NCBI GenBank assembly: GCA_026770025.1
Contig: JAMXDE010000041.1
Span: 553,937 to 617,936, forward strand
Source: Craspedostauros australis
Taxonomy: Eukaryota; Bacillariophyta; Bacillariophyceae; Mastogloiales; Achnanthaceae
DNA: 64,000 bases
Direction: 5' to 3'
Shown: positions 4,486-51,470 of the stretch, in pieces
Numbering within the stretch: position 1 is the stretch's first letter
Layout of the letters: the number at the start of each line of letters is the position of its first letter
Position numbers and translations under genes: made by a program
Notes under the pieces: model-generated
What the model was told of the DNA's origin: nothing
The model's database searches: none
The model's input: only the letters and a program-made list of their open reading frames with translations

Positions 4486-7140
4486 ATGGTGCGACGTATC
4501 AAAGAATGCGGTCTCTGCGTTCGTCGATTCATCGCGTTGGCCGACGCACCTGTGTGCGATGCATGTTGCGACGCAGTTGACACAGCGCAGAGTTCCGATG
4601 CAGCACCAACGAACACAGTAGACATGATCGATCTGCTGTCTTCAGCTCCTGAGGAGGATGCGGGTGGCACTGCTCATGTTCATGCTGCTGGTGCCGATGA
4701 TGCCAGCGTGATTTGCTGCGGCAGCGAGGGCGGCGACGACATTCATTGCACACAAGGCAGCTTCGACGTGGAAGACAGCAACAACAAAGATGGACGGTTG
4801 GATGATACTGAGGATGGGACAACAGATTCAGCACTTTGCAAAGCCGGACCTGCCAATGTCAATGCACACGCACGCACTCCACCCATACAGACGACTCCGG
4901 TTGATTTCCACACCGTGACCATCACGAAGACAGCAACTGCCAATGGCAGCAGCAGCACCGACTACGACGCACACCGCGAGGACAGCATCTGCTTCATATG
5001 TGGCAAGTCGCTGCTGCAGATCAAGCACCGTGTTGCTCACATGAAGCGGTGTGCCAAGAAACACCAAGGCGCGACGGCCGATTTGGGAATGCGGGACAGC
5101 CGGATTGGTCTGATGAAGGATGATGGTGCATTCCCGAACGATCAGTGCCAGGTAACGCAGAGTTCTGCCTCCACCAACACCACGATTACCCGCAACCCCT
5201 ACGCTCAGAAGGGAAGCATAACCTGGCATGGTGACGCAAACGATGTGTTGAAATCTCATGAATCGGAGACACACAGCCGAGTCTCCAGTATGGCGAGCAG
5301 CAGTACGCTTTCTTCGTCCATCGCTGGCACTGGCGGAGGATCAGCGCAAGTCAGCCAGCACGGTGGAGAAGGCACGTCGCTTGCCAGCAAAAAGCCACCA
5401 GCGCGTGATTTGAACAGCGTGCTGATTGCCAATGCACGACGATTGTCACAAATCGAGGCAATCCGGGCAAAGCAACGTGCAGACAGCCGCACGCAACACA
5501 CCTCCTACGGTCGTGGGAGGGGTGCTTGGAGAGGGCCGTACAAGAATCGCAAATACAACAGCGTAAGTGATCTTGCTTTGTGTGTCCGCGATATGTCATG
5601 CATGGAAAGATCGATCATTGAAAAGTCTGCATTCAATCTTCATCTCACAAGTCGCACCTGTGCATGTCCATCATTTCTGCCCATCCTGTATCCTCCACCA
5701 CTGTACATACACGTATGCAACTGCAGGAAAACTGCCCATCATACAAGAAGATCACTGGGACCGATTTCGTCTGCGATGGATTTTACTACGCCAACGAGTA
5801 CGTCGCCTGTCTCATTTTCATCTCGCCATCAGCTGGCTGCATTCCTCGACCCGGCCGCTGACCTTGTCCACCGATGAGACTATCCCTTTGTAGCGTGCTT
5901 CTTTTCATCCGAAGGTCGTACCTTGCCGACACATCAACGACGACGACCCCCTGATGACACCTCGTCTCATCCTGCCGTAATTCTCGTACACCAAATCGCC
6001 CACTGCCATACTCGTATGAATACTGACACAATGGCATTCCTATCAATTATACTATGCAATGCGATACAACTCTATGCTCGTTATCATCTCAGATCCTTCA
6101 CGAAGAACTACTTCTTGACGCATTTCCATTCCGACCACTACGGTGGCATCACATCCGCATGGAACCAAGGCATCATCTACTGCTCGCTGCCGACCGCGAA
6201 TCTGGTCAATGCACAGCTCGGAGTTGACAAGAAGTATCTGCATCCATTGCCCATGATGGTACCCACGGTCGTGGAGAGCAGGGGCAAGGCCGTGACTGTG
6301 ACGTTGCTGGATGCCAACCATTGTCCCGGTGCGGTCATGTTCCTCTTCCAGGTCGGCCCGAAGCATATCCTCCACGTTGGCGATTTCCGATGGAGCCGCG
6401 ACATCATGTTCCATCAGCAGTACCTGAAGCCATTCCTCTTCAGCCGGAAGTTGCGGCTCGATGAGCTGTTCCTGGATACGACGTACTGCAATCCCAAGTA
6501 CACGTTGCCGTCGCAGGAGCAGACCGTCCAGGCAACGCTCAAGGTCGTGCAGGATGAAGTGAAGCGGGCGAAAGAGAGCGGCAGCAGAGTCCTCCATTTG
6601 TTCGGTGCGTACACGATCGGGAAAGAACGCATGTACATGGCCGTTGCCCAGCACTTCGGATGGCGCATCTTCGTCGATAGGCGGCGGTACCGTGTCTTGC
6701 AAGCATCAGGGTGGCCCCCAGAGCAAATGACACTATTCACGACGACGCCAACCAACGACAGCTGTATCTGGGTTGTGCCTATGGGAGACCTCAACATGAA
6801 GAAGCTACCGAAATATTTTGAGACTGCAATGTCGCTCTCATTGGCGTCGCCTGGCGTGGCACCATGCGATCGTATCGTTGGGTATTCGCCGACGGGCTGG
6901 TCGCTGTCGGCCAAGCCAGGACGCGGACTGGTGGGCAAACGATCCTCCGGCAAAATCACCATCTACTCTGTTCCCTACAGCGAGCATTCCAGCTTTCCCG
7001 AACTCGTGGACTGCTTGAAATGCCTGAACCCCAGGAGGACAATTCCCACCGTCTCCGTATCGAAGACGAAGGAGCAGCTGGCGTTGCTCGAAAAGGGGGC
7101 GAGAGAAACGCAGACCACAATTCAACTTCGGTCCTCATAG
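4486..7140 (+). CDS. SNM1A: SNM1/PSO2 (DCLRE1A-type) DNA interstrand cross-link repair nuclease, copy A; three exons
   Basis: The exons are 4486-5562, 5727-5797 and 6093-7140. Donors are GTAAGT (5563) and GTACGT (5798); acceptors are CTGCAG (5726) and CTCAG (6092). All phases agree, and the joined frame gives 731 residues from the ATG at 4486. The start is inferred, because an in-frame TGA precedes it. Domains in order: a disordered N-terminus; a UBZ4-type ubiquitin-binding zinc finger (CFIC ... HMKRC, C-x2-C/H-x3-C) near residues 168-188; a metallo-beta-lactamase domain opening with CPSYKKI; HFHSDH near residue 393; DANHCPG near 456; the HVGDFRW aspartate near 477; and the beta-CASP/DRMBL region ending in VPYSEHSSF and IPTVSV. 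All metal ligands I can check are present. The family trims DNA 5'-to-3' past interstrand cross-links, recruited in part through ubiquitin (family knowledge). The gene is convergent with LRR gene A, 143 bp away. It is the only intact SNM1 copy in the window. Confidence 0.9.
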
Positions 7141-22117: not shown

Positions 22118-22137
22118 CCCTTCCTGTGTGCATTCGG

Positions 22138-28100: not shown

Positions 28101-28922
28101 GTTGAACTGACGCTTGAGTTTGATCTTCGTTGCTGCGTCGGATGGACGGAACTTCTCCGCGAGAACGTTCCACGCTGCGTGTGGATCTCCTTCGGGGTAG
28201 TCATCGGAGACGCATTGGTTGATGTACTGGATGGCCTGCTTGCCCTTTCCTTTCTCTGCATCCATCATGAGGATCAGATCACTGAAGCAATCGCATCCCA
28301 GTTCGTAGATCTCTTCCATCGCTTCCTTGGCCTCGTTGGTGGCTGCCGCGATCTCGCTCACCGTTGGTATCTTGATCTTGCCCAACATCACGTCTCTCGT
28401 CTTCTGTGCACGAGCGTATGCCTTCGCTTGGGACTCCCATGCGCTGTAGTCTTCCTGTTCACCGCTGAACATCGGCGCCTTGATGCGTCGCTTGTTCATG
28501 TTGGCTGATGTCGCCATGTTGATTCGTTGTTTCGTTGTTGGTGCGCTCGCGCCCTTGATTTCCGTCTGTTTCTGTGTTGTCACTTTTTCGATTTTCGCTT
28601 GTTGTTTCGCAAGGATTGATTTGCTCACAAATTCTCCTCCTGGTGGTGTCTCACTTTTACCACTTCGTTTGGCTGTGCGAATGCTCTCCGTCACACCAGT
28701 CTCCTCTTGCTTGATCGCCTCGGGAATCCTCTTCTCCTTACGATGTAGTCTTGCAGACCGTTCTTCTTCGGTCTCGTCGATCGCGCTTGCGTATGCGCCT
28801 GATAGGACAGTAGCCGCAGCTGCTTCCTTCTCTTGTCGTGGTGGAGTCTCACTCGCACCTTCTTCTCTCTTGATAGTCGGATTGGACAGAGGGATGTCTC
28901 TCAATTCCTCTTCCTCACTCAT
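22138..28922 (-). pseudogene. Copia Gag-Pol polyprotein, split once by a 609-bp insertion
   Basis: Minus strand from the ATG at 28922 (MSEEEELRD) to a stop at 22138. Gag lies at 28922-28077, followed by the insertion; the frame then resumes at 27457. Removing the insertion and one 5-bp duplication leaves 6171 nt (2056 residues) open throughout. Order: Gag; two CCHC knuckles (CHNCGVYGHRSADC about 27149-27108, CNYCGIFGHREAEC about 27004-26963); a long acidic linker; protease WLADSGSS (DSG at 25803-25795); GAG-pre-integrase LHRMLGH; integrase D,D,E as FIDISYT, RGDNSGEN and NGRVERKF; reverse transcriptase with YVDD at 23136-23125; RNase H with CDSEYAG and SSSEAEY. Integrase before RT makes it Ty1/copia, similar in layout to diatom CoDi elements. 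The only visible lesion is the insertion. Confidence 0.9.
27463..28071. mobile_element. 609-bp insertion in gag, probable solo LTR or small element
   Basis: It is flanked by GGGTC on both sides (27458-27462 and 28072-28076). It begins TGATAAAACG and ends GAGCTAATA. It contains no coding frame. It includes a GC-rich stretch (27840-27990) resembling an LTR regulatory part. A 5-bp duplication suits an LTR, but the TG..TA ends are not standard. It inserts stop codons into gag. Confidence 0.65.
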
Positions 28923-29004
28923 TCAGTCTGCTGCACCTGAATGATGTTCGTCTTCCTCGCACGATCCGATCCGCGGGCTCGCCCTGATCTATCGTTTATA
29001 AACG

Positions 29005-29799
29005 TGTTGGCAAGTTCCGCTCACGGTAACCTACGATCGTGGAAGATGGTGTTGGTTGATAGTCGTTCGTTTGCTATTTCATTAGTTGGTTACTCCGATC
29101 CTCTCGGTGTACACCAGTTGTCTTGCCCGATGCTTTTGGCGCTTCAATCTGTTTCGCAGATTCAGTCTCCGACTATGAGTCGGTACGCGAGATCCTCTCT
29201 CGCTCTTCTCTGTATTCTCTCTCTCTCTCTCTCTTAACATCGTGTGCTCGTGCTACACGATACTCTGTGTTCGATGCGTACTCCGCATTCGACACTCCGT
29301 TCGTTTAGTACTGGTTCCTACTCCATGAGTACTTACCATTTGAAGTTCACCTTCAGTATCCATGATCTTCATGGATCATCGCATCTTCGCCTCCTGCTCT
29401 GACTTGGAGACAGCTGTCGACGTGGTGACATGTTGACATCCTGTTGACGTCAGTAGGCGTCCTTCTGCTCTCCAGATGTCATGTTCCATTGGTGATGCAG
29501 CAGCCTGTCAGATGATATCGTCATCTGAGGTTTAGTTGGGAAGTACCTCGAGATTCTCTTGGTACCATTGATGCATGGACGGACGATCTTCTGATTCTCC
29601 CAGAAATCGTTATTTGCAAATTTCCTCCAGAAATCTTGCCCCTTTTCGTGTGTTCCATTTCCCCTGTAATTCTGACGAATTACAGCATACTATCGACACG
29701 AGTATAGTTATACCGTCCAAGTGCGTATGAGAGAATAGCGGGTGAACGATGCACATATACACGTAAATCTTGACGTATACTCACATGTACATTTCGACA
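29005..29799 (-). repeat. Copia 5' LTR (795 bp)
   Basis: It starts TGTTGGCAAG and ends TTTCGACA on the plus strand and is the intact partner of the 3' LTR. A long CT microsatellite lies at about 29215-29233. The short leader between this LTR and the gag ATG is 82 bp. Confidence 0.92.
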
Positions 29800-33163: not shown

Positions 33164-33554
33164 GTGCAGCGCAACGCAGCACACCGCATCAGCCTGGATA
33201 CGTCAACAACAACAACAACACCAAAATCACCGCATCAGCGTGAATGCGTCAACAACAGGAACATCACACGAGAACCAGCAAAGCAGGCAGAAATCACAGA
33301 CAGAGAGCACTACTCCCCAGAGTAGATCACACAGAATAACAACAACAGTACGAACAAAACCAAAACAAACACCAAAAAACAACGAAAACAACAGAAACAG
33401 AAACACAAAGGAGAGAACTAACTAAGTACTCAATAGTAGTAGGAACAAACAAAGTACCATGATGGGTGCAAATCACATATTTATGTCTAATCAAGTACCT
33501 GGTCTTGCCAATTCCGACATAAAAAGTAAGCTTTTCTCCTTTTCCGACAACTCC
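33164..33554. other. Harbinger right flank and terminal repeat
   Basis: A CAACA/AACA-rich 3' UTR-like stretch (33200-33410) is followed by the right terminal inverted repeat ending TTTCCGACAACTCC at 33554. No gene is seen. Confidence 0.6.
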
Positions 33555-33638
33555 CTGTACATACACGTATGCAACTGCAGGAAAACTGCCCATCGTTCAA
33601 GAAGATCACTGGGACCGATTTCGTCTGCGATGGATTTT
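33555..33638 (+). other. 84-bp island of SNM1 between two transposons
   Basis: It equals copy A positions 5701-5784: the end of intron 1 (acceptor CTGCAG) and the first 58 nt of exon 2, up to the duplicated site gatggatttt. Two or three substitutions separate it from copy A. Confidence 0.9.
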
Positions 33639-33995
33639 GAGGAAATTCACTAACCAGCCATTTCGAAGTGCCGATTTGCACTAACCAGCCTGTTTTGGGT
33701 GACTTAGAGTATCAAAACGTCCAAATGTCGATGCGACATCCCATGGACACAGAGATTTCTTGTCGACATCCGAGGTTAGCACATAAATGTAGACTACCTG
33801 TACCATGCACAAAAAGTACAATCCACATCATACATGATTGCCATACTAGTCATACAATGCAAGTAAATAGTCCATCCGAATATATGACGTCCAGTGAAGG
33901 GAATTAATGCCTACTTTAGTCGTAGATATGCGCATCATCCATCCGTTTGCTCCGATTCTTTGCGCCTTGGATCGTGCTCTGACCAAATGTATCAT
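33639..33995 (+). repeat. MULE left terminal inverted repeat
   Basis: It is nearly identical to the complement of 44534-44891 except a divergent block of about 45 bp at 33691-33735. The 12-mer cactaaccagcc occurs twice (33648-33659 and 33679-33690), 31 bp apart, a likely pair of transposase-binding sites. Confidence 0.9.
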
Positions 33996-34121
33996 CGAGT
34001 GGCTCCATACCAATGCACTGTGTCCTTCTGAGCATGCGAAACAACAGGCTGCCGAACCATAACATAAATTACATCCAACGTAGCAAACACAACAATTGCA
34101 TCAAACTGTTCAACAACCAGC

Positions 34122-36056
34122 ATGTCCAGCAACAACAAATCGTTCATCACCCTTGCAAAGGGAGCGGAAAAGCAAGGAGTGGACTTCATTCATGTTTGCG
34201 CGGCTGTATTGTCGCACAGCTTGTCTGTTGGTGCCGGATACATTCAAAAGAAGAGGTCAGGCGATGCAATCAAGCTCGTGTGCTCTGTTTCTACTGACTG
34301 TCCCTTCGACTGCCGTGCTTGTCTCTTGCCGAATGGCAAAGGGGTCCGCATCACGCACTTCGTTGGCCATGCTTGTCAGGGTACATGTACCCGCAAGAGA
34401 AGCTACAAAACTGCCATCTTGGACGAGATGACTGACATCATTGGGAAGTATCAAGTTCCTGCTGCAGGTGGGCGCCAGCAACTGGGTAACATGATCAAGA
34501 ACGAATTGTCCATCACGGTCAAAAAGGGGCAGCTCTACAATATCATCAGGGACAAAGGAGATACAATTGAGAAGCACTTGGCTGAGTGCAAGTTGATTCG
34601 GTCCTACATCGGTGCTGTGGCTGAGAAAGACAGTGGAGGAGTGTACAAAGTTGACATTGGTCCAGTCCAAGGTGACATCAATGGTGATGATGGAATGCAA
34701 TTGCGCCGCGTCTTTTGTGCACCTGGTGGAAGCATCAAGACATTCTCTCATTTCGATGGTATGGTGTGCGTGGATGCCACTCACCTTCGATCTGCAGTGA
34801 AGGGTTACATGTGCCTCCTGACCGCTTATGATGCATCACGCCAACTCGTCATTCTTGCATTTGGCATTCTCCCTGTTGAAACAGCAAGCAACTGGAAATG
34901 GTTCCTCGATCATGTGAGGAACAGCTTTCCAAAGGTGCGCCTGCTCATGAGCGATGGTGCGAAGGGCCTTGAGAGTGGCGAAGTGCAAATGATGTTGGCA
35001 GGATGGGGCGTCACTCACACGCGTTGCATGTACCACATCTTGGACAAGAATGTTTCATCCAACAAGCAGCTGACAATGACCTCAAGACAGCACAAGCTCC
35101 TCAAGTCAGCTGTGTATGCCTGCAATGAGAATTATGCAGATCAGAAGTTGAGCCAAGTCCAGGCACAGAATCCAAAACTCCACGAATGGTTTATTCAACG
35201 CCAACATAAATGCCTGACACATTTGTTGCTTCGCAAACCCAATCAACATCGCTTTGGTATCGTCACGTCTAATTCTTCCGAACAGGTCAATGCAGCCCTC
35301 GAACACATCAGAGACAAGCCCCTTTGCACACTGGTGGCAGGTGTTATCAAGTACATGGCTGACAAGCGCATGGAGAAAGCCATGAAGGCAGAAGAACACT
35401 GGAACACTGGAAATGTCTTGACTCCTCGTTGCATGTCTGACATGGACATGCTGAACAAAAAATCCGGGAAACTAAACGTGCTCGTGGACAGTGTACATGA
35501 CTCCGAGATCAAAGCGAGTGTCATGTGGTATGACAGCCCTACCATTTCTGAGGAAGTGACTCTCAGATCGGACTTTGCAATGACCTGCACCTGTGGTGCT
35601 CCATTGGAGTACAAGAGGCCCTGTCTCCACATCCTGGCAGTGTTCCGCGCAGACGCTGCTAGGCCCAGGAATGCACCGCCAGGCGTCTTTCACTACAAGA
35701 ACGTTGGTTGGTACAGCAAGGAATGGCATACTGCCACATGGTTGGAGCAACACGGAAAAAAGGTGGTGCCCATTCAACGAGCAAGGGTGGAACGAAGACA
35801 ATTGGTGGCAGAGAATGTGGTGCCCATGATGATTTCCGCGAAGTCGGGTCGGAAGCGGAAAACTACCAATAGCGACAATCCATCAGCTACCAGAGGAGTG
35901 CGACTGTGCCCAGGATGCGGCGAGCTCGGCCACTTCCTTCACAGTTGCCCAAAACCAATTCCATCCACCCTTGTGAAGAGCAAAAAGAAACAAGTCGACA
36001 AGATCCTGCCCCAAGTGATGGAACAACTGGGAGGCAGCGTGCAGGATGAAGAATAG
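34122..36056 (+). CDS. MULE transposase with SWIM finger and CCHC knuckle
   Basis: An intronless frame of 644 residues begins at the ATG at 34122 (MSSNNKSFITLAK). A Cys/His-rich N-terminal part (CSVSTDCPFDCRACLL ... GHACQGTCTRKR) resembles the FAR1/FLYWCH-type DNA-binding fold of MULE proteins. The catalytic core has VDATHL (Asp 218), MSDGAKG (Asp 278), the CMYH pair and SSEQVN (Glu about 387), the DDE order of Pfam MULE. A SWIM zinc finger CTCGAPLEYKRPCLH starts at residue 489, and a CCHC knuckle CPGCGELGHFLHSC at about 596. All key residues are present and there is no frameshift, so it could be active. The start is supported by position just inside the terminal repeat. Confidence 0.92.
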   Translation: MSSNNKSFITLAKGAEKQGVDFIHVCAAVLSHSLSVGAGYIQKKRSGDAIKLVCSVSTDCPFDCRACLLPNGKGVRITHFVGHACQGTCTRKRSYKTAILDEMTDIIGKYQVPAAGGRQQLGNMIKNELSITVKKGQLYNIIRDKGDTIEKHLAECKLIRSYIGAVAEKDSGGVYKVDIGPVQGDINGDDGMQLRRVFCAPGGSIKTFSHFDGMVCVDATHLRSAVKGYMCLLTAYDASRQLVILAFGILPVETASNWKWFLDHVRNSFPKVRLLMSDGAKGLESGEVQMMLAGWGVTHTRCMYHILDKNVSSNKQLTMTSRQHKLLKSAVYACNENYADQKLSQVQAQNPKLHEWFIQRQHKCLTHLLLRKPNQHRFGIVTSNSSEQVNAALEHIRDKPLCTLVAGVIKYMADKRMEKAMKAEEHWNTGNVLTPRCMSDMDMLNKKSGKLNVLVDSVHDSEIKASVMWYDSPTISEEVTLRSDFAMTCTCGAPLEYKRPCLHILAVFRADAARPRNAPPGVFHYKNVGWYSKEWHTATWLEQHGKKVVPIQRARVERRQLVAENVVPMMISAKSGRKRKTTNSDNPSATRGVRLCPGCGELGHFLHSCPKPIPSTLVKSKKKQVDKILPQVMEQLGGSVQDEE

Positions 36057-36295
36057 ACTAACCATCATAGCACAATGGTATAGTTTGCCATTACATTCCC
36101 TGTAGATAACACTCTACAATACAATGATGATGTATAGTAGTCTGTTGAATCATCATGGCTCTAGAAGTGTCTCATGCTGTCTACAGTGTGTCATGCATTG
36201 GCACGGTGTACATTAGAAGGCCCAAGCTGATGGCATTTGAACACTTGCAGTGCATCAAGGGCGTTCGACTGGGTACACTCCCAGCTAACCAGGAC
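36057..36295. other. MULE spacer between transposase and satellite
   Basis: AT-rich 3' flank of the transposase. No gene is seen. Weak similarity to the satellite begins near 36296. Confidence 0.5.
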
Positions 36296-39200
36296 CAGGA
36301 TCCTTCTGGAAGGTATTCAAATCTGAGTTTGTGGATATCGAGTGCTGTGGGTGGTAGTACTGTGACCTACGCACAATACTGTGCAGTAGATTGTCAAAAT
36401 GTGCATATAAAATGTCAATCACAATCGAATCCAACCTGACGGGCACTTACAACACGCCCAAAAGTGTCTGGTCACGAAGTATGAGGTCTCCAGGCCATCT
36501 GGAAGGCATCCATATCTGAGAATCTAGATTTGGTGTGGTGTTGTGGGTGGTAGTACTACGAGCTACGCACAATACTGTGCAGTAGATTGTCAAAATGTGC
36601 ATATAAAATGTCAACCACAATGAAATCCAACCTGGCGGAAACTTACAACACGCCCCAAAGTGTCTGGTCACGAAGTATGAGGTCTCCAGGCCATCTGGAA
36701 GGCATCCATATCTGAGAATCTAGATTTCGAGTGGTGTTGTGGGTGGTAGTACTACGAGCTACGCACAATACTGTGCAGTAGATTGTCAAAATGTGTGTAT
36801 AAAATGTCAACCACAATGAAATCCAACCTGGCGGACACTTACAACACACCCCAAAGTGTCTGGTCACGAAGTATGAGGTCTCCAATCCATCTGGAAGGCA
36901 TCCATATCTGAGAATCTAGATTTTTGTGTGGTGCCGTGTGTGGTAGTACTGTGACCTACGCACAATACTGTGCAGTAGATTGTCAAAATGTGCATATAAA
37001 ATGTCAACCGCAATGAAATCCAACATGGCGGACACTTACAACACACCCCAAAGTGTCTGGTCACGAAGTATGAGGTCTCCAGGCCATCTGGAAGGCATCC
37101 ATATCTGAGAATCTAGATTTGGTGTGGTGTTGTGGGTGGTAGTACTGTGACCTACGCACAATACTGTGCAGTAGATTGTCAAAATGTGCATATAAAATGT
37201 CAACCACAATGAAATCCAACCTGGCGGAAACTTACAACACGCCCCAAAGTGTCTGGTCACGAAGTGTGAGGTCTCCAGGCCATCTGGAAGGCATCCATAT
37301 CTGAGAATCTAGATTTGGTGTGGTGTTGTGGGTGGTAGTACTACGAGCTACGCACAATACTGTGCAGTAGATTGTCAAAATGCGCATATAAAATGTCAAT
37401 CACAATCGAATCCAACCTTGCGCCGACTTACAACACACCTCAAAGTGTCTGGTCACGAAGTATGAGGTCTCCAATCCATCTGGAAGGCATCCATATCTGA
37501 GAATCTAGATTTTTGTGTGGTGCCGTGTGTGGTAGTACTGTGACCTACGCACAATACTGTGCAGTAGATTGTCAAAATGTGCATATAAAATGTCAACCGC
37601 AATGAAATCCAACATGGCGGACACTTACAACACACCCCAAAGTGTCTGGTCACGAAGTATGAGGTCTCCAGGCCATCTGGAAGGCATCCATATCTGAGAA
37701 TCTAGATTTGGTGTGGTGTTGTGGGTGGTAGTACTGTGACCTACGCACAATACTGTGCAGTAGATTGTCAAAATGTGCATATAAAATGTCAACCACAATG
37801 AAATCCAACCTGGCGGAAACTTACAACACGCCCCAAAGTGTCTGGTCACGAAGTGTGAGGTCTCCAGGCCATCTGGAAGGCATCCATATCTGAGAATCTA
37901 GATTTGGTGTGGTGTTGTGGGTGGTAGTACTACGAGCTACGCACAATACTGTGCAGTAGATTGTCAAAATGTGCATATAAAATGTCAACCGCAATGAAAT
38001 CCAACCTGGCGGAAACTTACAACACACCCCAAAGTGTCTGGTCACGAAGTATGAGGTCTCCAGGCCATCTGGAAGGCATCCATATCTGAGAATCTAGATT
38101 TTTGTGTGGTGCCGTGTGTGGCAGTACGATAGCCTACGCACAATACTGTACAGTAGATTGTCAAAATGTGTGTATAAAATGTCAACCACAATGAAATCCA
38201 ACCTGGCGGACACTTACAACACGCCCCAAAGTGTCTGGTCACGAAGTATGAGGTCTCCAGGCCATCTGGAAGGCATCCATATCTGAGAATCTAGATTTTT
38301 GTGTGGTGCCGTGTGTGGTAGTACTACGAGCTACGCACAATACTGTGCAGTAGATTGTCAAAATGTGCATATAAAATGTCAACCACAATGAAATCCAACC
38401 TGGCGGACACTTACAACACACCTCAAAGTGTCTGGTCACGAAGTATGAGGTCTCCAGGCCATCTGGAAGGCATCCATATCTGAGAATCTAGATTTGGTGT
38501 GGTGTTGTGGGTGGTAGTACTGTGACCTACGCACAATACTGTGCAGTAGATTGTCAAAATGTGCATATAAAATGTCAACCACAATGAAATCCAACCTGGC
38601 GGAAACTTACAACACACCCCAAAGTGTCTGGTCACGAAGTATGAGGTCTCCAGGCCATCTGGAAGGCATCCATATCTGAGAATCTAGATTTGGTGTGGTG
38701 TTGTGGGTGGTAGTACTACGAGCTACGCACAATACTGTGCAGTAGATTGTCAAAATGTGCATATAAAATGTCAACCGCAATGAAATCCAACCTGGCGGAA
38801 ACTTACAACACACCCCAAAGTGTCTGGTCACGAAGTATGAGGTCTCCAGGCCATCTGGAAGGCATCCATATCTGAGAATCTAGATTTTTGTGTGGTGCCG
38901 TGTGTGGCAGTACGATAGCCTACGCACAATACTGTACAGTAGATTGTCAAAATGTGTGTATAAAATGTCAACCACAATGAAATCCAACCTGGCGGACACT
39001 TACAACACACCCCAAAGTGTCTGGTCACGAAGTATGAGGTCTCCAGGCCATCTGGAAGGCATCCATATCTGAGAATCTAGATTTTTGTGTGGTGCCGTGT
39101 GTGGTAGTACTACGAGCTACGCACAATACTGTGCAGTAGATTGTCAAAATGTGCATATAAAATGTCAACCACAATGAAATCCAACCTGGCGGACACTTAC

Positions 39201-42200
39201 AACACACCTCAAAGTGTCTGGTCACGAAGTATGAGGTCTCCAGGCCATCTGGAAGGCATCCATATCTGAGAATCTAGATTTGGTGTGGTGTTGTGGGTGG
39301 TAGTACTGTGACCTACGCACAATACTGTGCAGTAGATTGTCAAAATGTGCATATAAAATGTCAATCACAATCGAATCCAACCTTGCGCCGACTTACAACA
39401 CACCTCAAAGTGTCTGGTCACGAAGTATGAGGTCTCCAGGCCATCTGGAAGGCATCCATATCTGAGAATCTAGATTTGGTGTGGTGTTGTGGGTGGTAGT
39501 ACTGTGACCTACGCACAATACTGTGCAGTAGATTGTCAAAATGTGCATATAAAATGTCAACCACAATGAAATCCAACCTTGCGCCGACTTACAACATACC
39601 CCAAAGTGTCTGGTCACGAAGTATGAGGTCTCCAATCCATCTGGAAGGCATCCATATCTGAGAATCTAGATTTTTGTGTGGTGCCGTGTGTGGCAGTACG
39701 ATAGCCTACGCACAATACTGTACAGTAGATTGTCAAAATGTGTGTATAAAATGTCAACCACAATGAAATCCAACCTGGCGGACACTTACAACACACCCCA
39801 AAGTGTCTGGTCACGAAGTATGAGGTCTCCAGGCCATCTGGAAGGCATCCATATCTGAGAATCTAGATTTTTGTGTGGTGCCGTGTGTGGTAGTACTACG
39901 AGCTACGCACAATACTGTGCAGTAGATTGTCAAAATGTGCATATAAAATGTCAACCGCAATGAAATCCAACCTGGCGGAAATTTACAACACGCCCCAAAG
40001 TGTCTGGTCACGAAGTATGAGGTCTCCAGGCCATCAGGAAGGCATCCATATCTGAGAATCTAGATTTTTGTGTGGTGCCGTGTGTGGCAGTACGATAGCC
40101 TACGCACCATAGTGTACAGTAGATTGTCAAAATGTGTGTATAAAATGTCAACCACAATGAAATCCAACCTTGCGCCGACTTACAACATACCCCAAAGTGT
40201 CTGGTCACGAAGTATGAGGTCTCCAATCCATCTGGAAGGCATCCATATCTGAGAATCTAGATTTTTGTGTGGTGCCGTGTGTGGTAGTACTACGAGCTAC
40301 GCACAATACTGTGCAGTAGATTGTCAAAATGTGCATATAAAATGTCAATCACAATCGAATCCAACCTTGCGCCGACTTACAACACACCTCAAAGTGTCTG
40401 GTCACGAAGTATGAGGTCTCCAGGCCATCTGGAAGGCATCCATATCTGAGAATCTAGATTTGGTGTGGTGTTGTGGGTGGTAGTACTGTGACCTACGCAC
40501 AATACTGTGCAGTAGATTGTCAAAATGTGCATATAAAATGTCAACCACAATGAAATCCAACCTGGCGGAAACTTACAACACGCCCCAAAGTGTCTGGTCA
40601 CGAAGTGTGAGGTCTCCAGGCCATCTGGAAGGCATCCATATCTGAGAATCTAGATTTGGTGTGGTGTTGTGGGTGGTAGTACTGTGACCTACGCACAATA
40701 CTGTGCAGTAGATTGTCAAAATGCGCATATAAAATGTCAACCACAATCAAATCCAACCTGGCGGACACTTACAACACACCCCAAAGTGTCTGGTCACGAA
40801 GTATGAGGTCTCCAATCCATCTGGAAGGCATCCATATCTGAGAATCTAGATTTTTGTGTGGTGCCGTGTGTGGTAGTACTACGAGCTACGCACAATACTG
40901 TGCAGTAGATTGTCAAAATGTGCATATAAAATGTCAACCGCAATGAAATCCAACCTGGCGGAAATTTACAACACGCCCCAAAGTGTCTGGTCACGAAGTA
41001 TGAGGTCTCCAGGCCATCAGGAAGGCATCCATATCTGAGAATCTAGATTTTTGTGTGGTGCCGTGTGTGGCAGTACGATAGCCTACGCACCATAGTGTAC
41101 AGTAGATTGTCAAAATGTGTGTATAAAATGTCAACCACAATGAAATCCAACCTTGCGCCGACTTACAACATACCCCAAAGTGTCTGGTCACGAAGTATGA
41201 GGTCTCCAATCCATCTGGAAGGCATCCATATCTGAGAATCTAGATTTTTGTGTGGTGCCGTGTGTGGTAGTACTACGAGCTACGCACAATACTGTGCAGT
41301 AGATTGTCAAAATGTGCATATAAAATGTCAATCACAATCGAATCCAACCTTGCGCCGACTTACAACACACCTCAAAGTGTCTGGTCACGAAGTATGAGGT
41401 CTCCAGGCCATCTGGAAGGCATCCATATCTGAGAATCTAGATTTGGTGTGGTGTTGTGGGTGGTAGTACTGTGACCTACGCACAATACTGTGCAGTAGAT
41501 TGTCAAAATGTGCATATAAAATGTCAACCACAATGAAATCCAACCTGGCGGAAACTTACAACACGCCCCAAAGTGTCTGGTCACGAAGTGTGAGGTCTCC
41601 AGGCCATCTGGAAGGCATCCATATCTGAGAATCTAGATTTGGTGTGGTGTTGTGGGTGGTAGTACTGTGACCTACGCACAATACTGTGCAGTAGATTGTC
41701 AAAATGCGCATATAAAATGTCAACCACAATCAAATCCAACCTGGCGGACACTTACAACACACCCCAAAGTGTCTGGTCACGAAGTATGAGGTCTCCAATC
41801 CATCTGGAAGGCATCCATATCTGAGAATCTAGATTTTTGTGTGGTGCCGTGTGTGGTAGTACTACGAGCTACGCACAATACTGTGCAGTAGATTGTCAAA
41901 ATGTGCATATAAAATGTCAATCACAATCGAATCCAACCTTGCGCCGACTTACAACACACCTCAAAGTGTCTGGTCACGAAGTATGAGGTCTCCAGGCCAT
42001 CTGGAAGGCATCCATATCTGAGAATCTAGATTTGGTGTGGTGTTGTGGGTGGTAGTACTGTGACCTACGCACAATACTGTGCAGTAGATTGTCAAAATGT
42101 GCATATAAAATGTCAACCACAATGAAATCCAACCTGGCGGAAACTTACAACACGCCCCAAAGTGTCTGGTCACGAAGTGTGAGGTCTCCAGGCCATCTGG

Positions 42201-42782
42201 AAGGCATCCATATCTGAGAATCTAGATTTGGTGTGGTGTTGTGGGTGGTAGTACTGTGACCTACGCACAATACTGTGCAGTAGATTGTCAAAATGCGCAT
42301 ATAAAATGTCAACCACAATCAAATCCAACCTGGCGGACACTTACAACACACCTCAAAGTGTCTGGTCACGAAGTATGAGGTCTCCAATCCATCTGGAAGG
42401 CATCCATATCTGAGAATCTAGATTTGGTGTGGTGCCGTGTGTGGTAGTACTACGAGCTACGCACAATACTGTGCAGTAGATTGTCAAAATGTGCATATAA
42501 AATGTCAATCACAATCGAATCCAACCTGGCGGAAACTTACAACACACCTCAAAGTGTCTGGTCACGAAGTGTGAGGTCTCCAGGCCATCAGGAAGGCATC
42601 CATATCTGAGAATCTAGATTTTTGTGTGGTGCCGTGTGTGGCAGTACGATAGCCTACGCACCATAGTGTAAGGTAGATTGTCAAAATGTGTGTATAAAAT
42701 GTCAACCACAATGAAATCCAACCTTGCGCCGACTTACAACATACCCCAAAGTGTCTGGTCACGAAGTATGAGGTCTCCAATC
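36296..42782. repeat. Satellite array, direct orientation, ~196-bp units (about 33 copies)
   Basis: Units of 196-197 bp contain the constant words ggtctccaggccatctgg, catatctgagaatctaga and cagtagattgtcaaaatg. The first unit (36296-36475) is clearly diverged; central ones are nearly identical. Variant units recur at 786 bp (4 units, for example 38104, 38890, 39676), 983 bp (5 units, 40070 and 41053) and 589 bp (3 units), so there is higher-order structure. Unit length is not a multiple of three, and the short frames inside are by-products. Confidence 0.92.
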
Positions 42783-42863
42783 TGTCAGGAATGTATCCAT
42801 GTGGAAGGGTCAGTCTAGCCTGATGCCAAGGTCACCGTGCGGCCTCACAAGGCACCTCTCAAA
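42783..42863. other. Spacer at the satellite inversion point
   Basis: About 81 bp of sequence found once (gtcaggaatgtatccatg onward) separates the direct and inverted arrays. It would be the loop of a giant hairpin. Confidence 0.7.
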
Positions 42864-44460
42864 ATCTAGATTCTCAGATATGGATGCCTTCCAGATGGCC
42901 TGGAGACCTCATACTTCGTGACCAGACACTTTGAGGTGTGTTGTAAGTGTCCGCCAGGTTGGATTTGATTGTGGTTGACATTTTATATGCACATTTTGAC
43001 AATCTACTGCACAGTATTGTGCGTAGGTCACAGTACTACCACCCACAACACCACACCAAATCTAGATTCTCAGATATGGATGCCTTCCAGATGGCCTGGA
43101 GACCTCATACTTCGTGACCAGACACTTTGGGGTGTGTTGTAAGTGTCCGCCAGGTCGGATTTCATTGTGGTTGACATTTATAGGCACATTTTGACAATCT
43201 ACTGTACACTATGGTGCGTAGGCCATCGTACTGCCACACACGGCACCACACCAAATCTAGCTTCTCAGATATGGATGCCTTCCAGATGGCTTGGAGACCT
43301 CATACTTCGTGACCAGACACTTTGGGGCGTGTTGTAAGTGTCCGCCAGGTTGGATTTCATTGTGATTGACATTTTATATGCACATTTTGACAATCTACTG
43401 TACACTATGGTGCGTAGGCTATCGTACTGCCACACACGGCACCACACCAAATCTAGATTCTCAGATATGGATGCCTTCCAGATGGCCTGGAGACCTCATA
43501 CTTCGTGACCAGACACTTTGAGGTGTGTTGTAAGTCGGCGCAAGGTTGGATTCGATTGTGATTGACATTTTATATGCGCATTTTGACAATCTACTGCACA
43601 GTATTGTGCGTAGGTCACAGTACTACCACCCACAACACCACACCAAATCTAGATTCTCAGATATGGATGCCTTCCAGATGGCCTGGAGACCTCATACTTC
43701 GTGACCAGACACTTTGAGGTGTGTTGTAAGTGTCCGCCAGGTTGGATTTCATTGTGGTTGACATTTTATATGCACTAATTCTCAATCTACTGTACACTAT
43801 CGCGCGTAGCTCGAAGTACTACCACCCACAACACCACTCGAAATCTAGATTCTCAGATATGGATGCCTTCCTGATGGCCTGGAGACCTCATACTTCGTGA
43901 CCAGACACTTTGGGGTGTGTTGTAAGTTTCCGCCAGGTTGGATTTCATTGCGGTTGACATTTTATATGCACATTTTGACAATCTACTGCACAGTATTGTG
44001 CGTAGCTCGTAGTACTACCACCCACAACACCACTCGAAATCTAGATTCTCAGATATGGATGCCTTCCAGATGGCCTGGAGACCTCATACTTCGTGACCAG
44101 ACACTTTTGGGCGTGTTGTAAGTGCCCGCCAGGTTGGATTTCATTGTGATTGACATTTTATATGCACATTTTGACAATCTACTGTACACTATGGTGCGTA
44201 GCTCGTAGTACTGTCACACAACACCACATCATATTCACGTCCAGATATGAATGCCTTCCAGATGGACTGGAGACCTCATACTTCGTGGCCACGTCCTTTG
44301 GGGTGTATTGTAAGTGGGCGCCGGGTTCGATGGCATTGTTATCTACATTTTTATGCACAATCGTTCTGCATACTCTTCAACGCGATTCGTCTGGCACCGC
44401 ATCAGTAGATTCCTAGATTTGGATAGTGTGACCCCTTCCAGAAGGATACAGATCCTCAAA
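42864..44460. repeat. Satellite array, inverted orientation (about 8 copies)
   Basis: This is the same ~196-bp unit on the opposite strand, starting aatctagattctcagatatg. The outermost unit (44224-44460) is strongly diverged, mirroring the diverged outer unit on the left. Confidence 0.9.
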
Positions 44461-44533
44461 CGCTACCCCAAACACACTGAATTGCCATTGATGTGATGAC
44501 ATTTGTGTAAATTTACTATGTCTATCTTTTCCT

Positions 44534-44891
44534 ATGATACACTTGGTCAGAGCACGATCCAAGGCGCAAAGAATCGGAGCAAACGGATGGATGATGCGCA
44601 TATCTACGACTAAAGTAGGCATTAATTCCCTTCACTGGACGTCATATATTCGGATGGACTATTTACTTGCATTGTATGACTAGTATGGCAATCATGTATG
44701 ATGTGGATTGTACTTTTTGTGCATGGTACAGGTAGTCTACATTTATGTGCTAACCTCGGATGTCGACAAGAAATCTCTGTGTCCATGGGATGTCGCTTCG
44801 ACATTCGCACGTTTTGTGCCACTAAGTGTTGTCAAATCAGGCTGGTTAGTGCAAATCGGCACTTCGAAATGGCTGGTTAGTGAATTTCCTC
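44534..44891 (-). repeat. MULE right terminal inverted repeat
   Basis: Complement of the left repeat; ends GTGAATTTCCTC at 44891. It also carries the paired 12-mer (ggctggttagtg at two places). Confidence 0.9.
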
Positions 44892-46408
44892 GATGGATTT
44901 TACTACGCCAACGAGTACGTCGCCTGTTTCATTTTCATCTCCCTATCAGCTGGCTGCATTCCTCGACCCGGCCGCTGATCTTGTCCACCGATGAGACTAT
45001 CCCTTTGTAGCGTGCTTCTTTTCATCCGAAGGTCGTACCTTGCCGACACATCAACGACGACGACCCCCTGATGACACCTCGTCTCATCCTGCCGTAATTC
45101 TCGTACACCAAATCGCTCACTGCCATACTCGTATGAATACTGACACAATGGCATCCCTTTCTATTGTACTATGCAATGCGATACTCCTCTCTGCTCGTTA
45201 TCATCTCAGATCCTTCACGAAGAACTACTTCTTGACGCATTTCCATTCCGACCACTACGGTGGCATCACATCCGCATGGAACCAAGGCATCATCTACTGC
45301 TCGCTGCCGACCGCGAATCTGGTCAATGCACAGCTCGGAGTTGACAAGAAATACCTGCATCCATTGCCCATGATGGTACCCACGGTCGTGGAGAGCAGGG
45401 GCAAGGCCGTGACTGTGACGTTGCTGGATGCCAACCATTGTCCCGGTGCCGTCATGTTCCTCTTCCAGGTCGGCACGAAGCATATCCTCCACGTTGGCGA
45501 TTTCCGATGGAGCCGCGACATCATGTTCCATCAGCAGTACCTCAAGCCATTTCTCTTCAGCCGGAAGTTGCGGCTCGATGAGCTGTTCCTGGATACGACG
45601 TACTGCAATCCCAAGTACACGTTGCCGTCGCAGGAGCAGACCGTCCAGGCAACGCTCAAGGTCGTGCAGGATGAAGTGAAGCGGGCGAAAGAGAGCGGCA
45701 GCAGAGTCCTCCATTTGTTCGGTGCGTACACGATCGGGAAAGAACGCATGTACATGGCCGTTGCCCAGCACTTCGGATGGCGCATCTTCGTCGATAGGCG
45801 GCGGTACCGTGTCTTGCAAGCATCAGGGTGGCCCCCAGAGCAAATGACACTATTCACGACGACGCCGACCAACGACAGCTGTATCTGGGTTGTGCCTATG
45901 GGAGACCTCAACATGAAGAAGCTCCCGAAATATTTTGAGACTGCAATGTCGCTCTCATTGGCGTCGCCTGGCGTGGCACCATGCGATCGTATCGTTGGGT
46001 ATTCGCCGACGGGCTGGTCGCTGTCGGCCAAGCCAGGACGCGGACTGGTGGGCAAACGATCCTCCGGCAAAATCACCATCTACTCTGTTCCCTACAGCGA
46101 GCATTCCAGCTTTCCCGAACTCGTGGACTGCTTGAAATGCCTGAACCCCAGGAGGACAATTCCCACCGTCTCCGTATCGAAGACGAAGGAGCAGCTGGCG
46201 TTGCTCGAAAAGGGGGCGAGAGAAACGCAGACCACAATTCAACTTCGGTCCTCATAGCTCGTCGAGATCTGTTCCTTTCGAGTATTTTACAGACGCACTT
46301 GATGAAACCTCATCGTGCTTACGAGTATGTCAGTATGTGTACAAGTGTACATGTGTACATGTATGGATGGTGCTCGCCCACTACGAGTATCCCTCTGCGA
46401 GAACACCA

Positions 46409-49400
46409 TCATTGTCTTCTGCCGGGAGAGCTGTCAGGAAGATCATAGCACGCTTCATCGCCCATCATGTCACAGCAGATCGTGGTGTTGCAGCAGACGC
46501 TGCAGCAATCACACGTAACGGCCGGTGGCTCACCATCATCGAATGGTAGGCATTGGGCTGAGTATTCACCGGCATTGCGTTGCTGCGTTGGATCTGTTGC
46601 GTTGCAAACAATCGAATTGATGTCGCCGGTGACACTGATGTTGACCATTGTCAAGAGTTCCAGATCGAGAGTTGCGGAGAGCTGATTGAGTTCCGTTGGG
46701 ATGGTACCAATAAAGTCGTTGTAGCCGAGGTAAAGCCTCCGAAGGTTGCTGAGTTTGCCAAGTTCGGATGGGATTTCTCCAAACATGACAGCTGATTCTG
46801 CGTATGAGTACGCACGAGTACGACAATGAGAGAAGGTGATTGTGATGATGTGAAATAGACGAAGGAGGTTGGCCATTGTGAGTTACGACCTGTCGTGGAC
46901 AAGCACCCAATGCTCATCAGCGACTTGGATAGGTCGATGAACTGATCGAGAGGAATGGGTTGAATATGCCAAGCACACATCAAACATGCGCCAAGCATGT
47001 ACCAAGCATGTACCAAACGAGTCCGTGCTCAGACGAGTATCGTGACTTACCCAGATCCAATCGAGTCAACTTTGTGAGCAACCCTATTTCTGATATCAGC
47101 GGTCCTTTGACTTCGTTCCCAGCTGTGTGAAACAAAATGTGGAGGTGCGAGCAATGTATGAACATTGTGTGAGGATGCCATCTGAGCCAGAACATGGAAC
47201 AAGACCGTCCGGTCACGGTGGATTGGAGTGTGTCTGCGGTATGCAATACACATGGATACTTCGATTGCTGAGATGCATACTTACAGAGATTGAGATGGCG
47301 CAGATCAGTGAGCAACCCCATCTCTGTCAACATGGAATTCTTCATTCCGTTGTTGGCTGGAGGTTGGGAATCAAATAGAATGGGTGAGTCAAGATGATGA
47401 AAACAGAGTGCCGAGGTGAGATAAAAGGAGGAAAGGTGAAAATCAGACGATTCATCTGCTCAATGCACACCAAGAGCGACACGAAGGACACAGAGTCCAT
47501 CAAAGCGATTAACAGAAGCATACGTATCACTGTGTGTGCGCACTACTCACGTGCGTTGATTTGATCCATGTTGACGCTTTCTCTGTGGTCGCAGCTGAGT
47601 CCTATCCAATTGCAGGTCTCAAGTTCGCTCAACCAACCATTTTTTACGATCCAATTTGGTCCATCATGTTGATAGTATAAAGCGATCATGATGTACCGCT
47701 CCAGCAACTTTTGTGCGGGGAGGGTTGGAAAGTTCAGCTTGGCGGGATCATCTTGGACCAACCACCACAGTGCACGATTGTACGGCGATTGGGGTTCGGA
47801 AACTGCAGCCGCTTGACTTTGCGTGATGTTGGGATATAGCAAGCCCACCAGAAGATCGTATCGTTCCAAAAGTAGCCGCTCTTCCTCTGTGGAGGGTGCT
47901 GATGATGGTGCCAACGATGGTGTCAACGTCGGCTGTTGAGATGGTTGCCATGACGGAGCATCTGATTGCGTAACGGACGGCCTTCCTGATGATAGGATTG
48001 GTGCTGTCGGACCGCCGGAATCACTTTCACCTGCCAGAAGTACAGCGATGATCACAACACCAGCAACGATGAAGACGAAAGCGATGCAACAAATCCATTG
48101 AGCCCGGCCCCGTTCCATCCCGCAAAGCGTATTGTGGTCGTCTTGCGATTCAATGGCTTCCGCAGTCACAATCATCATTTTAGATTGTCCGGGGCCTTGT
48201 ACAGCCGGAGTTTCCTCGTCGGTTGTCCTCGTTGTGACACCAGGAATTGTCGTGCTTTCGTCAAGACCATTCTCATTTCGAGCAGTTGTTGATGTTGCTG
48301 CAACGCTGAGCCGTGTGCTGCCATCGCCATGGCGCTCCAGATCTTGTCGCTTCTCCATCATCTGTTGCCGTTGCGCTTCGAGCTGTTGAGTACGTGCCTC
48401 CAGCTCCTGCAACCGCTCTCTGGCACGGATGGCTTCTGGCGACATGAAGTCATCGTCTCCGACTAAATGCCCTTCGACCATCTGCGTTTGTCCCCGCTTC
48501 ATGGATGGCATGTCACTACTATCGTCACCGTGAATATGGGCTGCAAAGGCGTCGTCGGATTGCGCTTCATCGTTCCAAGCATCGTCGGAACTATTGTAGT
48601 CATCATTGGATCTGCCTGTGCTGTTAAACCCAGCAACGCGGATAGCTCCTGGCCGATGCAAATCGAAGGAAGGTGCCTTGGACGGCGATGCAGGACCGGC
48701 CGCCGCTATCGCAGCAGAATGCATCGATGAAATGTGAGGTCGGGGTCCCGTTTCTATTTTTGTTCCTGCGTCTGGTTGCGTCGATGCCAATAGATGCGCT
48801 TGATGTGTTGTCGACGACACGTCCATTGCCATCCCATCTGCGTGATCGTCATACGCCACATCATACTTGTCCATGACATCTCTCATCATGGGCTTTTCCT
48901 GTTTCGCGTTCGGGTCCGACCGAAGAGAGGCAACCTTGGAGGGGTTGGGGTTCCCTTGCGTTGCAGCATGCAAACGCTCCTTGAGTAGCGATTTCGTCGG
49001 TATGTTGCCTTTGTTCGCTCCTGGTTTGGTCGCCAAACCTGTTTCATCCTTGATGTAATTTGGCATGACTGCTTCCCGTTTCGCTTGCGACATTCTATCG
49101 TCGGATGCCGCAGTATCCAACTGGCGTTGGGTTGGTGCTGACGTGAACTGCTTGCTGTGTGCCGACTCTGGAGCAGACGCAGACAGACTTGGCGGAGACG
49201 ATTGGAACCTTTGCTGCTGCTCCTTTGCGTGTTGTGAGTGCTGTGCATGGTGGACAGAAGTCGGTTGTTCTGCCACTGCTCCAACACGCGATGATCTCGC
49301 TCTGCGTCCATAGCTGGAGCTCGGTACAGTCACCAGCCCGCTCACGTCCCCAGACAGCGCCAATTTCGCAGCCGATTTTGCAGCTCGCATGGCAACCGAG

Positions 49401-49663
49401 TTTCGTGACGTCATCGTTCGATTGGTCGCCGATGATTGATTGAGAGGAGCGACTCTGTCTGCATCACCGTCGCCGCCATGATCTTGTTGACTATTTGCAT
49501 CGTACGCAACTCCTGCATTGGGTCGTCTCTGCCGCTGCACTTCGTTGAGCAACTCCAGCACCTCGTTGGGATCGTCTTGGACATCTTCCTCCTCCTCCTC
49601 GAAGCTGTCGTCCCTCGCTTGTCCGTGGTTGCTGGCGTTTCGGCGATGGTTGGGATCGCTCAT
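46409..49663 (-). CDS. Single-pass membrane LRR protein, gene B; four exons
   Basis: Minus-strand exons are 49663-47551, 47356-47285, 47122-47051 and 46797-46409, with the same splice sites as gene A; 2646 nt, 881 residues. Exons 2-4 are almost identical to gene A. Exon 1 differs by a few substitutions and small in-frame indels in the disordered region. Domain order: acidic N-terminus, coiled coil, transmembrane helix (WICCIAFVFIVAGVVIIAVLL), Pro/Ser stalk, LRR cap, LRRs encoded partly by two 72-nt exons, Cys-rich tail. It is convergent with the dead SNM1 copy B 152 bp away, as gene A is with copy A, so both genes were duplicated as a block. Confidence 0.85.
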
Positions 49664-51470
49664 GGTCCCAGTTCTTCATTCAATTCTATTCCACTCTGCT
49701 GTTTCTCGTTGTTGAGCTTGGTCCAACTCACCGACTTCTGCCAAACCTCTCTTTCGCGATACCTGTCGATCGATGGGCTCAGATCTGCGTTGATGCGTTC
49801 TTGTGGGTGGTCATCGCAGTCGCATTCTTTGTTGGTCTGTTGGGAGTGCCGCGAACACCATCACGAATTGTACGACCAACACTTGAGCTTTTCCCCTTCG
49901 ACTTTTTCTCACTCGTGACCAAATCTGTCTTGCGTTGTGTCTCTGACGGTTTCGAAACGTTATGACAATCCACAATCTGCCATGCAGGTAGGACGCACTA
50001 AGTTGTGAGGTTGGGTGAAGCGATTGTGTCCACATGAGCTGACTGCGTACCCACGTGCATCAAGAAGAGTGCGAGCTATAATACGATCTATGGAACCCGA
50101 GCACTTCCAATTCAACTCAAGACTGCTGTGCTGCCATCGTTCTGCACAAGAGCTGGCGATGGATGGCATCGCGAGGAAGCACAGCGAAAACGGTGCGGTC
50201 CTTGGCGAAGCCATTTGCGATACCACAGCTCATAGATCGTAGATCGTGTAATAGATCGTCGATCGTACGCAGTCCCATAGACTCTAAACTAAAAAGGAGA
50301 AAGAGAATTCTGTATCAACGGCATCAACGATTGAACTGCAAGTGTAGTACTCGGAGAGTGTCATGTACTCCACACGTGTTCCTCTGCTACGGAATGATTT
50401 GCGTCAAAGGACTTGTTGCAACACGCAACTACCGCACATCATGCCACAGCAGAGCGTCAGAGTACGACAACTGGCTGTCTGCACTCGTCCATGTGTTCAT
50501 GGAGATGCTGATGCGAACATCCAACGACAAGAATCATCCAAGAACCCAAAGTCATGACGCGTGTGGAGTAAAGTACTGTTATATATATATATATTCATAT
50601 TACACCGTTATGACCAGCACTTTGGGTTTTTCCACATCGCCGAAAGACTTTGTTCTGTGGATCGCCAAGGAGAGAAGAATCCGTTCTGTGGGCATCGTCA
50701 GAAACTGGACACTGTCAGATGACTGTTCGATCCTCGCTATGCCACCCATGTCTGCGATAATGCAGCACAAGTATTGGTGCATGTACGAGCTAGGCACATC
50801 AACTATTTTACTTTTGAACCAACAGTGTTCGTACGAGTACGAGTACGTTTTCATTCTCGCCACTGTGCTTGCCATCGGAGGTTGGTTTCCTTGTTGAGGA
50901 TCGCCACCAGGTTCGCATCGATGGATCCAAGACATGAGGTTGGAGTCTTTCGGGCGCTGCAAATGTCCAAACAAATGCCAGGCAACCACAGCGCAACTCG
51001 CAGACCACTCTGTTTTGGAATCGCCTTGACACCTTGATGAACTTGCATGTACTCGTAGCGCATGGGTACGAGTAGTCGACGAGGATCACACCCGCAGGCA
51101 TCAATCTGTTTCGAAATGATATTGTCTTGATTGCATGTGATGAGGAAAACATGAGACGAAAGCGAAATCAGTTCTCTGCATAGTCCCGAAAATGAGGGCG
51201 TGTGATGTGTTGGAGGTACTACTATGGTGAAAGTACTCTGCCATTAGCTCGTGACCATATCACGCAGCGAAAGTCACGATGTCACACCACTCGTCACATC
51301 CCGCGCACTCGTACCACACCATGCACACGACAAGCTCATGGTATTGACTGGAATCAATTCCGTCCCTCCAACACCGACAGTCGCTGTCTCATAAAATCAA
51401 TCGATGAACAGATTGAAAAGCAAACCATCACCAGCCAGCAACCACAACGACAACAACGACAACAGCAAAG
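49664..51470. other. Divergent spacer between LRR gene B and the secreted-protein gene
   Basis: No supported gene. A plus-strand frame of 244 codons at 50163-50897 has no domain and a biased composition, and spans an AT run (about 50580-50593). Its conservation at 58849-59583 only reflects the recent tandem duplication. Repeated TACGAGTA/TACTCGTA words occur at 50830-50847 and 51050-51076. CAACGA-rich 5' UTR precedes the ATG at 51471. Confidence 0.5.

Follow-up and report, generated by a model that had tools for sequence, protein, structure and literature searches.

A Mutator-like element of Craspedostauros australis enclosing a tandem array with an inverted arm on one side of the transposase gene

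In the window analyzed here (the whole 64,000-nucleotide stretch of contig JAMXDE010000041.1 from position 553,937 to 617,936, assembly GCA_026770025.1), an autonomous-looking DNA transposon, a Mutator-like element (MULE), forms a complete insertion in one copy of a segmental duplication and contains a large array of 196-bp units with an inverted arm. We consider it likely that this array, which lies 3′ of the transposase gene and resembles the inverted tandem arrays of foldback elements, is cargo that was carried to the present site by the MULE, and that its direct arm has grown by block duplication. The case bears on how satellite arrays originate and spread to new sites. Here, an unbroken transposase, terminal inverted repeats (TIRs), an empty site, and the array are all found in one sequence, so that the diversity of the units can be compared with the age of the insertion and the order "array first, jump later" becomes testable in a single species.

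The MULE extends from 33639 to 44891 (11,253 bp). Its TIRs, approximately 358 bp each, are in inverted orientation and their alignment has 344 matches, 13 substitutions, and 2 gap columns. The sequence GATGGATTTT is present once on each side of the element, which gives a target-site duplication (TSD) of 10 bp (10 or 11 bp, as the element boundary is ambiguous by one base), within the size of approximately 8–11 bp that characterizes MULEs. In the whole window, GATGGATTTT occurs only at 5775, 33629, and 44892, and the first of these occurrences is a single copy without any TIR remnant in a paralogous segment. Self-comparison of the window matched 5774–10708 to 44891–49839 (97.2%) and 5701–5784 to 33555–33638 (97.6%), and the stretch between these two matches is missing from the first segmental copy. 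Because GATGGATTTT is found on both sides of the element and only once in the other copy, it represents a target-site duplication with a corresponding empty site. The coordinates of all features are listed in Table 1. As to the two TIRs themselves (33639–33996 and 44534–44891), their first 54 bp are identical, and so are the inner approximately 260 bp save one base near the inner end; the remaining differences cluster between those stretches, as if the rest had been homogenized.

Table 1. Features of the MULE, its tandem array, and the empty site (positions in the window)
Feature	Position	Strand	Basis or remark
Empty site, single GATGGATTTT	5775..5784	+	Self-comparison of window
Left TSD, GATGGATTTT	33629..33638	+	Direct repeat flanking MULE
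Left TIR, ~358 bp, begins GAGGAAATTCACTAACCAGCC, two copies of CACTAACCAGCC inside	33639..33996	+	Alignment to right TIR
MULE transposase gene, 644 codons, unbroken	34122..36056	+	Pfam and translation
Probable diverged partial unit, outer left array edge	36288..36335	+	Weak alignments to consensus and right edge
Direct arm, 32 full units (D01–D32), 196/197 bp	36336..42621	+	Tandem Repeats Finder and unit decomposition
531-bp stretch, exact repeat at lag 589, three-unit block	36852..37382	+	Second copy 37441–37971
Four-unit block, 786 bp, repeated at lag 786, 3 differences	37700..38485	+	Lag comparison
1,104-bp stretch, exact repeat at lag 983, five-unit block	39834..40937	+	Second copy 40817–41920
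592-bp stretch, exact repeat at lag 589, three-unit block	41172..41763	+	Second copy 41761–42352
Truncated 33rd direct unit (D33), adjoins spacer	42622..42779	+	Unit decomposition, corrected cuts
82-bp spacer (loop) separating arms	42780..42861	.	No unit likeness beyond shuffles
Inverted arm, seven units (R07–R01)	42862..44231	-	Tandem Repeats Finder and unit decomposition
Degenerate outermost inverted unit (R00)	44232..44465 (end approximate)	-	18% substitutions and indels vs consensus
Right TIR	44534..44891	-	Alignment to left TIR
Right TSD, GATGGATTTT	44892..44901	+	Flanking direct repeat

The transposase codons were counted from the first ATG and contain no stop; the stop-to-stop open reading frame (ORF) covers 34068–36056. 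Transposase domains of MULEs were detected in this ORF by Pfam, namely MULE (PF10551, 4e-10, 40.5 bits, cut-off 27.6) and Transposase_mut (PF00872, 4.2e-7, 29.6 bits, cut-off 21), together with a SWIM-like zinc finger (SWIM, 4.2e-4) whose 20.2 bits are just over the cut-off of 19.6. By eye, from known motifs, we take D218, D278, and E387 to be candidate catalytic residues and 596–609 to be a candidate C-terminal CCHC knuckle, for which the ORF had no Pfam match. The fold predicted from the single sequence was too poor for use (mean pLDDT 32.5), and no PDB chain matched the transposase in sequence. Relatives were detected neither in viral contigs nor in prokaryote contigs (33 stretches fitted a pattern and none was confirmed), both of which say little about a eukaryotic element. 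In principle, the transposase and the TIRs would give the MULE mobility.

Two arrays of 196-bp period were identified by Tandem Repeats Finder, one at 36342–42779 (32.8 copies, 92% matches, score 10683) and one at 42862–44359 (7.7 copies, 90%), the second being the reverse complement of the first. The entire array (36288–44465) occupies 73% of the MULE and comprises about 41 units, with both arms 3′ of the transposase gene; along the whole direct arm, the units follow one another every 196 or 197 bp. Compared with shuffled sequence, the spacer shows no resemblance to the unit in either orientation (scores of 23 and 25, where shuffles reach 37 and 32), the shuffles used for this and for the edge and TIR alignments having permuted two-base blocks rather than kept exact dinucleotide counts. 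Likeness to the unit is strong in the right edge stretch (44234–44534, score 190, maximum 57 in 200 shuffles) and weak in the left one (36057–36345, score 52, maximum 60 in 200 shuffles). As in foldback elements, there are inverted arms of tandem subrepeats (33 direct and about 8 inverted units); repeat arms within the terminal repeats at both ends, flanking a middle domain, were not found, and since the arms are not at both ends, a defining foldback feature is absent. The original prediction had described about 33 direct units of about 196 bp, an 81-bp spacer, and about 8 inverted units inside one transposon. Both counts agree with the two decompositions, the spacer measures one base more, and the TIRs, the 10-bp TSD, and the empty site enclose the whole array. 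The inverted arm was also correctly recognized, and the wording that the array ends in an inversion may understate its symmetry, as a private marker is found in outer units of both arms, in keeping with a foldback inverted duplication, although other rare variants common to the arms do not all obey that mirror.

The direct arm contains blocks of three, four, and five units in two or three copies each, in a nested and irregular arrangement, and its exactly identical units fall into nine classes. D19–D23 are identical to D24–D28 and D26–D27 to D29–D30, with a single difference between D28 and D31; likewise, D04–D05 are identical to D07–D08, and D09–D11 to D13–D15 save one difference. The longest exact repeat in the array, 1,104 bp at lag 983, contains the 983-bp block with 0 differences. 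When the order of D01–D32 was shuffled, none of 1000 permutations reached the observed longest same-lag run of near-identical unit pairs (at most one difference), which is five units. Mean lag distances, taken alone, are only weakly periodic (z -2.1 to 2.8 for lags 1–15), a pattern that agrees with duplications of a local, nested kind and speaks against any regular higher-order period. Lag comparisons thus bear out the block sizes of 786, 983, and 589 bp (four, five, and three units) noticed at the outset, and the likeness to centromeric satellites that had been drawn from the sequence is a loose one: block duplications are present in this array of about 41 units, whereas a regular multi-unit period over a long array, as in centromere-type higher-order repeats, is not, and the divergence gradient does not run simply from old edges to a young core.

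Pairwise, linkage, and rare-variant statistics were calculated from 38 of the 41 units (D01–D32 and R02–R07), with R00, R01, and D33 set aside, and divergence from the consensus was measured for all units with corrected cuts. The mean pairwise difference among D01–D32 is 6.3% (496 pairs), and 92% of the pairs differ by more than 2.8%, so the inner units, originally held to be nearly identical, are so only where they are copies of a block. The further claim that the outermost units are diverged holds for R00 (18% substitutions, 46 inserted and 8 deleted columns) and for the left partial unit, both clearly degenerate. It does not hold for D01 (4.7% substitutions and small indels) or R01 (6.7%), whose values fall between the extremes of the other full units (0.5–10.7%), and among the 33 direct units divergence is highest in an inner one, D33 beside the spacer (13.4%). 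Within units (25 distinct sequences among the 38), mean r2 decreases from 0.45 at 0–10 columns to 0.03 beyond 100 columns, and the four-gamete fraction increases with distance from 0.04 to 0.72. This decay of association and the presence of all four combinations at most distant site pairs imply that the units are mosaics that have exchanged sequence. Consequently, a tree of the units (without support values), in which the six inverted units used scatter among the direct ones, is not readable as a clean genealogy.

With regard to the relation of the two arms, the motif CGAGTG in unit orientation is restricted to D01 (where it sits 3 bases out of register), D03, R02, and R03. If R00 is counted, these units lie within the outer four of each arm, R03 being fourth from outside (chance 7e-4, or 5e-3 without D01), and if it is not counted, within the outer three (1.6e-4, or 2e-3 without D01), values to be read with the choice of the marker after it had been seen. 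Six rare variants common to both arms give a mixed picture of the mirror: two (one event) link D03 with R02/R03, two link D20/D25 with R05/R06 (one also with R03) and are carried by D33 as well, one links D06/D23/D28/D31 with R04, and one, against the mirror, links D19/D24/D32 with the outer unit R02. The closest direct units are D09/D13 for R02, D16 for R04, and D12/D31 for R07. The direct edge and the inverted edge align with a score of 46 (shuffled mean 26.6, maximum 52 of 300), a likeness that is only suggestive, and the mirror of the arms is likewise suggestive. In our reading, the array probably arose in the manner of a foldback element, after which the direct arm grew and the two arms exchanged sequence; alternatively, an older array may have undergone an internal inversion before such exchange.

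The empty site implies that the MULE is younger than the segmental duplication, whose paralogous copies thereby set a bound on the age of the insertion. They differ by 2.6% in the right flank (4,924 aligned bases) and at 2 of 73 bases in the left flank, with a dS of 0.036 in a flanking metallo-beta-lactamase ORF. Since the units differ more than the flanks (6.3% vs 2.6%), a multi-unit array probably travelled with the MULE: if repeats and flanks mutate alike, the variants predate the insertion and an array of several units was transported. On the other hand, the absence of differences over 983 bp places that block duplication after, or shortly before, the insertion, suggesting that an array of several units came in with the MULE and went on changing afterwards. 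This favors the earlier proposal that the array was carried by a mobile element, transposition with the array being deduced from relative ages because a single MULE copy was seen. Several processes could disturb the comparison. Divergence between 5785–10708 and 44902–49839 is unevenly distributed (from 0 to 6.5% in stretches of 500 bp), which suggests gene conversion, and conversion between the paralogues may make the flanks look too young; repeats may also mutate faster than flanks, and a precise loss of the MULE from the other segmental copy is possible.

In the history that we favor, a 196-bp unit downstream of the transposase gene would have been duplicated in tandem and inverted, forming a palindrome with few units per arm, and exchange among units (by unequal crossing-over or conversion, perhaps aided by hairpins) would have shuffled their variants. 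The direct arm would have reached 33 units by successive duplications of three-, four-, and five-unit blocks, part of this growth taking place after the MULE had carried the array to its present site. We favor the array as recombination-amplified cargo tolerated between the TIRs, and the lack of likeness between unit and TIR speaks for this role rather than for additional transposase-binding sites. A bolder proposal would make the transposase-bearing MULE the vehicle of a living satellite, in which the array predates the insertion, moved along, and still grows through the duplication of blocks; every jump would then deposit an already structured array able to give rise to free satellites. We regard this proposal as tentative and rather doubtful.

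Other explanations of the array deserve consideration. The arms could be functional: they might offer the transposase subterminal sites for binding or enhancement, and their copy number would have been selected. Foldback elements often hold subterminal repeats, the discussion of the Drosophila virilis element Tetris proposes that repeats added binding sites (PMC4079207), and the inverted arm stops approximately 70 bp from the right TIR. However, on neither strand does the unit resemble the left TIR beyond the level of shuffled sequence (scores 35 and 34; shuffled means 32.9 and 34.0), so its derivation as a TIR copy is not supported, whereas the repeats of Tetris share a 37-bp stretch with the outer TIR (PMC4079207). 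Moreover, the left end has no units (the 72-bp stretch that separates the left TIR from the open frame scores 20 and 20 against the unit, with shuffled means of 21.7 and 19.0), and the duplicated motif CACTAACCAGCC is confined within the window to the TIRs, even with one mismatch allowed. Such a function is unlikely to account for the array.

It is similarly improbable that the array is an insertion of its own within the MULE, either a foldback-like element or a satellite of the host. This explanation would suit the two inverted arms, which have some sequence in common at their outer edges and both lie on one side of the transposase, but the array edges fade instead of ending sharply, and they have no TSD: the longest word they share is 6 bp, a length reached in 325 of 500 shuffles of single bases. 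Misassembly, through a wrong copy number or inversion or the joining of MULE ends to a genomic satellite, has to be weighed as well, as a single assembly is the source of both the copy number and the inversion, and exact repeats of 1.1 kb are difficult for short reads. It is nevertheless very unlikely, given that TSD and empty site agree at both ends, the array is joined by non-repeated sequence to the transposase on one side and the right TIR on the other, distinguishing variants lie in different units of a block, and a private marker is common to the outer units of the arms.

Several searches addressed the nature of the unit. Satellite DNA typically forms long arrays at several, usually heterochromatic loci, and the original suggestion that a mobile satellite could seed arrays elsewhere in the genome is a conjecture. 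Self-comparison of the window revealed no unit outside the MULE, and Rfam had no match in the array when 33500–45000 was searched, its one match (E 2.5, below the gathering score) being in the transposase ORF. A coding role was rejected: in a concatemer of four consensus units, stop codons interrupt each of the six frames and the longest open run is 90 codons, and the array itself contains no stop-to-stop ORF that reaches 150 codons. An exact 27-base piece of the unit had no occurrence in viral contigs or prokaryote genome contigs, nor had 32 bases of the TIR in viral contigs, and such misses mean little when viral and prokaryotic collections are set against a presumed eukaryotic source. A transcript across the spacer could form a hairpin and feed small-RNA silencing.

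Inverted repeat arms are also found in Drosophila FB/NOF, where NOF encodes a MULE-type transposase, and in FARE of Arabidopsis, but in both the arms flank the coding part, which the present array does not. For FARE, a MULE-type transposase is mentioned in the report on Tm1, a Mutator/Foldback family of Meloidogyne (PMC3169594). Tm1 itself resembles the present element in its MULE transposase domain, internally repeated inverted ends, and 9-bp TSD, and differs in having repeats of a motif of approximately 14 bp at both ends and, in the part of the report available, no array of units of approximately 200 bp (PMC3169594). There is likeness in several respects to Tetris, for which membership of the Mutator superfamily was suggested and which has TSDs of 8–10 bp, internal tandem repeats of approximately 220 bp in inverted arms, a duplicated repeat put down to possible unequal crossing-over, and satellite arrays of up to 66 copies (PMC4079207). 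According to the accessible sections of that paper, Tetris copies have no conserved ORFs and no transposase-bearing copy was found, and the repeats are in both TIRs, whereas here the transposase ORF is unbroken and the arms are one-sided. Foldback elements are regarded there as one proposed source of satellite DNA, and the subterminal repeats of Galileo are reported as binding or enhancer sites of the transposase, a role suggested for early Tetris as well (PMC4079207). Galileo of Drosophila has long, internally repetitive TIRs with tandem repeats of approximately 210 bp that expand and contract, yet its transposase is of the P superfamily and its repeats, up to three as reported, are inside the TIRs (PMC3573991). 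Muta1 of Aedes aegypti, an active MULE classed as type-2 foldback, also has subterminal tandem repeats, but is only 3.2 kb long, and its 145-bp TIRs hold a 12-bp repeat in 9 copies (PMC5225508). The present element works like a foldback MULE, as a one-sided variant, and what sets it apart from Tetris, Tm1, Muta1, and Galileo is the one-sided position of the array and its multi-unit blocks. Among the matches listed in a search of titles and opening abstract lines, with few subscription journals covered, there was no MULE whose inverted array lies on one side and contains blocks of several units, and the available part of a review on satellites derived from transposons contains neither "MULE" nor "Mutator" (PMC12628747).

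The window contains further mobile and duplicated sequences. A Copia-type retrotransposon at 20528–29799 has its pol ORF on the minus strand (22138–27492, RVT_2 1.4e-41) and long terminal repeats (LTRs) at 20528–22117 and 29005–29799, the first of which is split by a 787-bp insertion (21140–21926) flanked by the 8-bp repeat GTTATTTG. Self-comparison revealed a further LTR of this retrotransposon at 12216–12999, inverted, 92% identical, and with no adjoining partner. Duplicated segments also include 4697–5703 and 17193–18212 (96%), as well as 49169–55327 and 57864–63992 (approximately 6.1 kb, 97.7% identity, offset approximately 8.7 kb). Both copies of the latter contain a minisatellite of 12/36/48 bp (CACCATCCAATC), at 53218–53552 and 61901–62234, and the ORF around the first (51417–53855) matched DUF7640 below the cut-off and PT disordered repeats at 2.2e-7.
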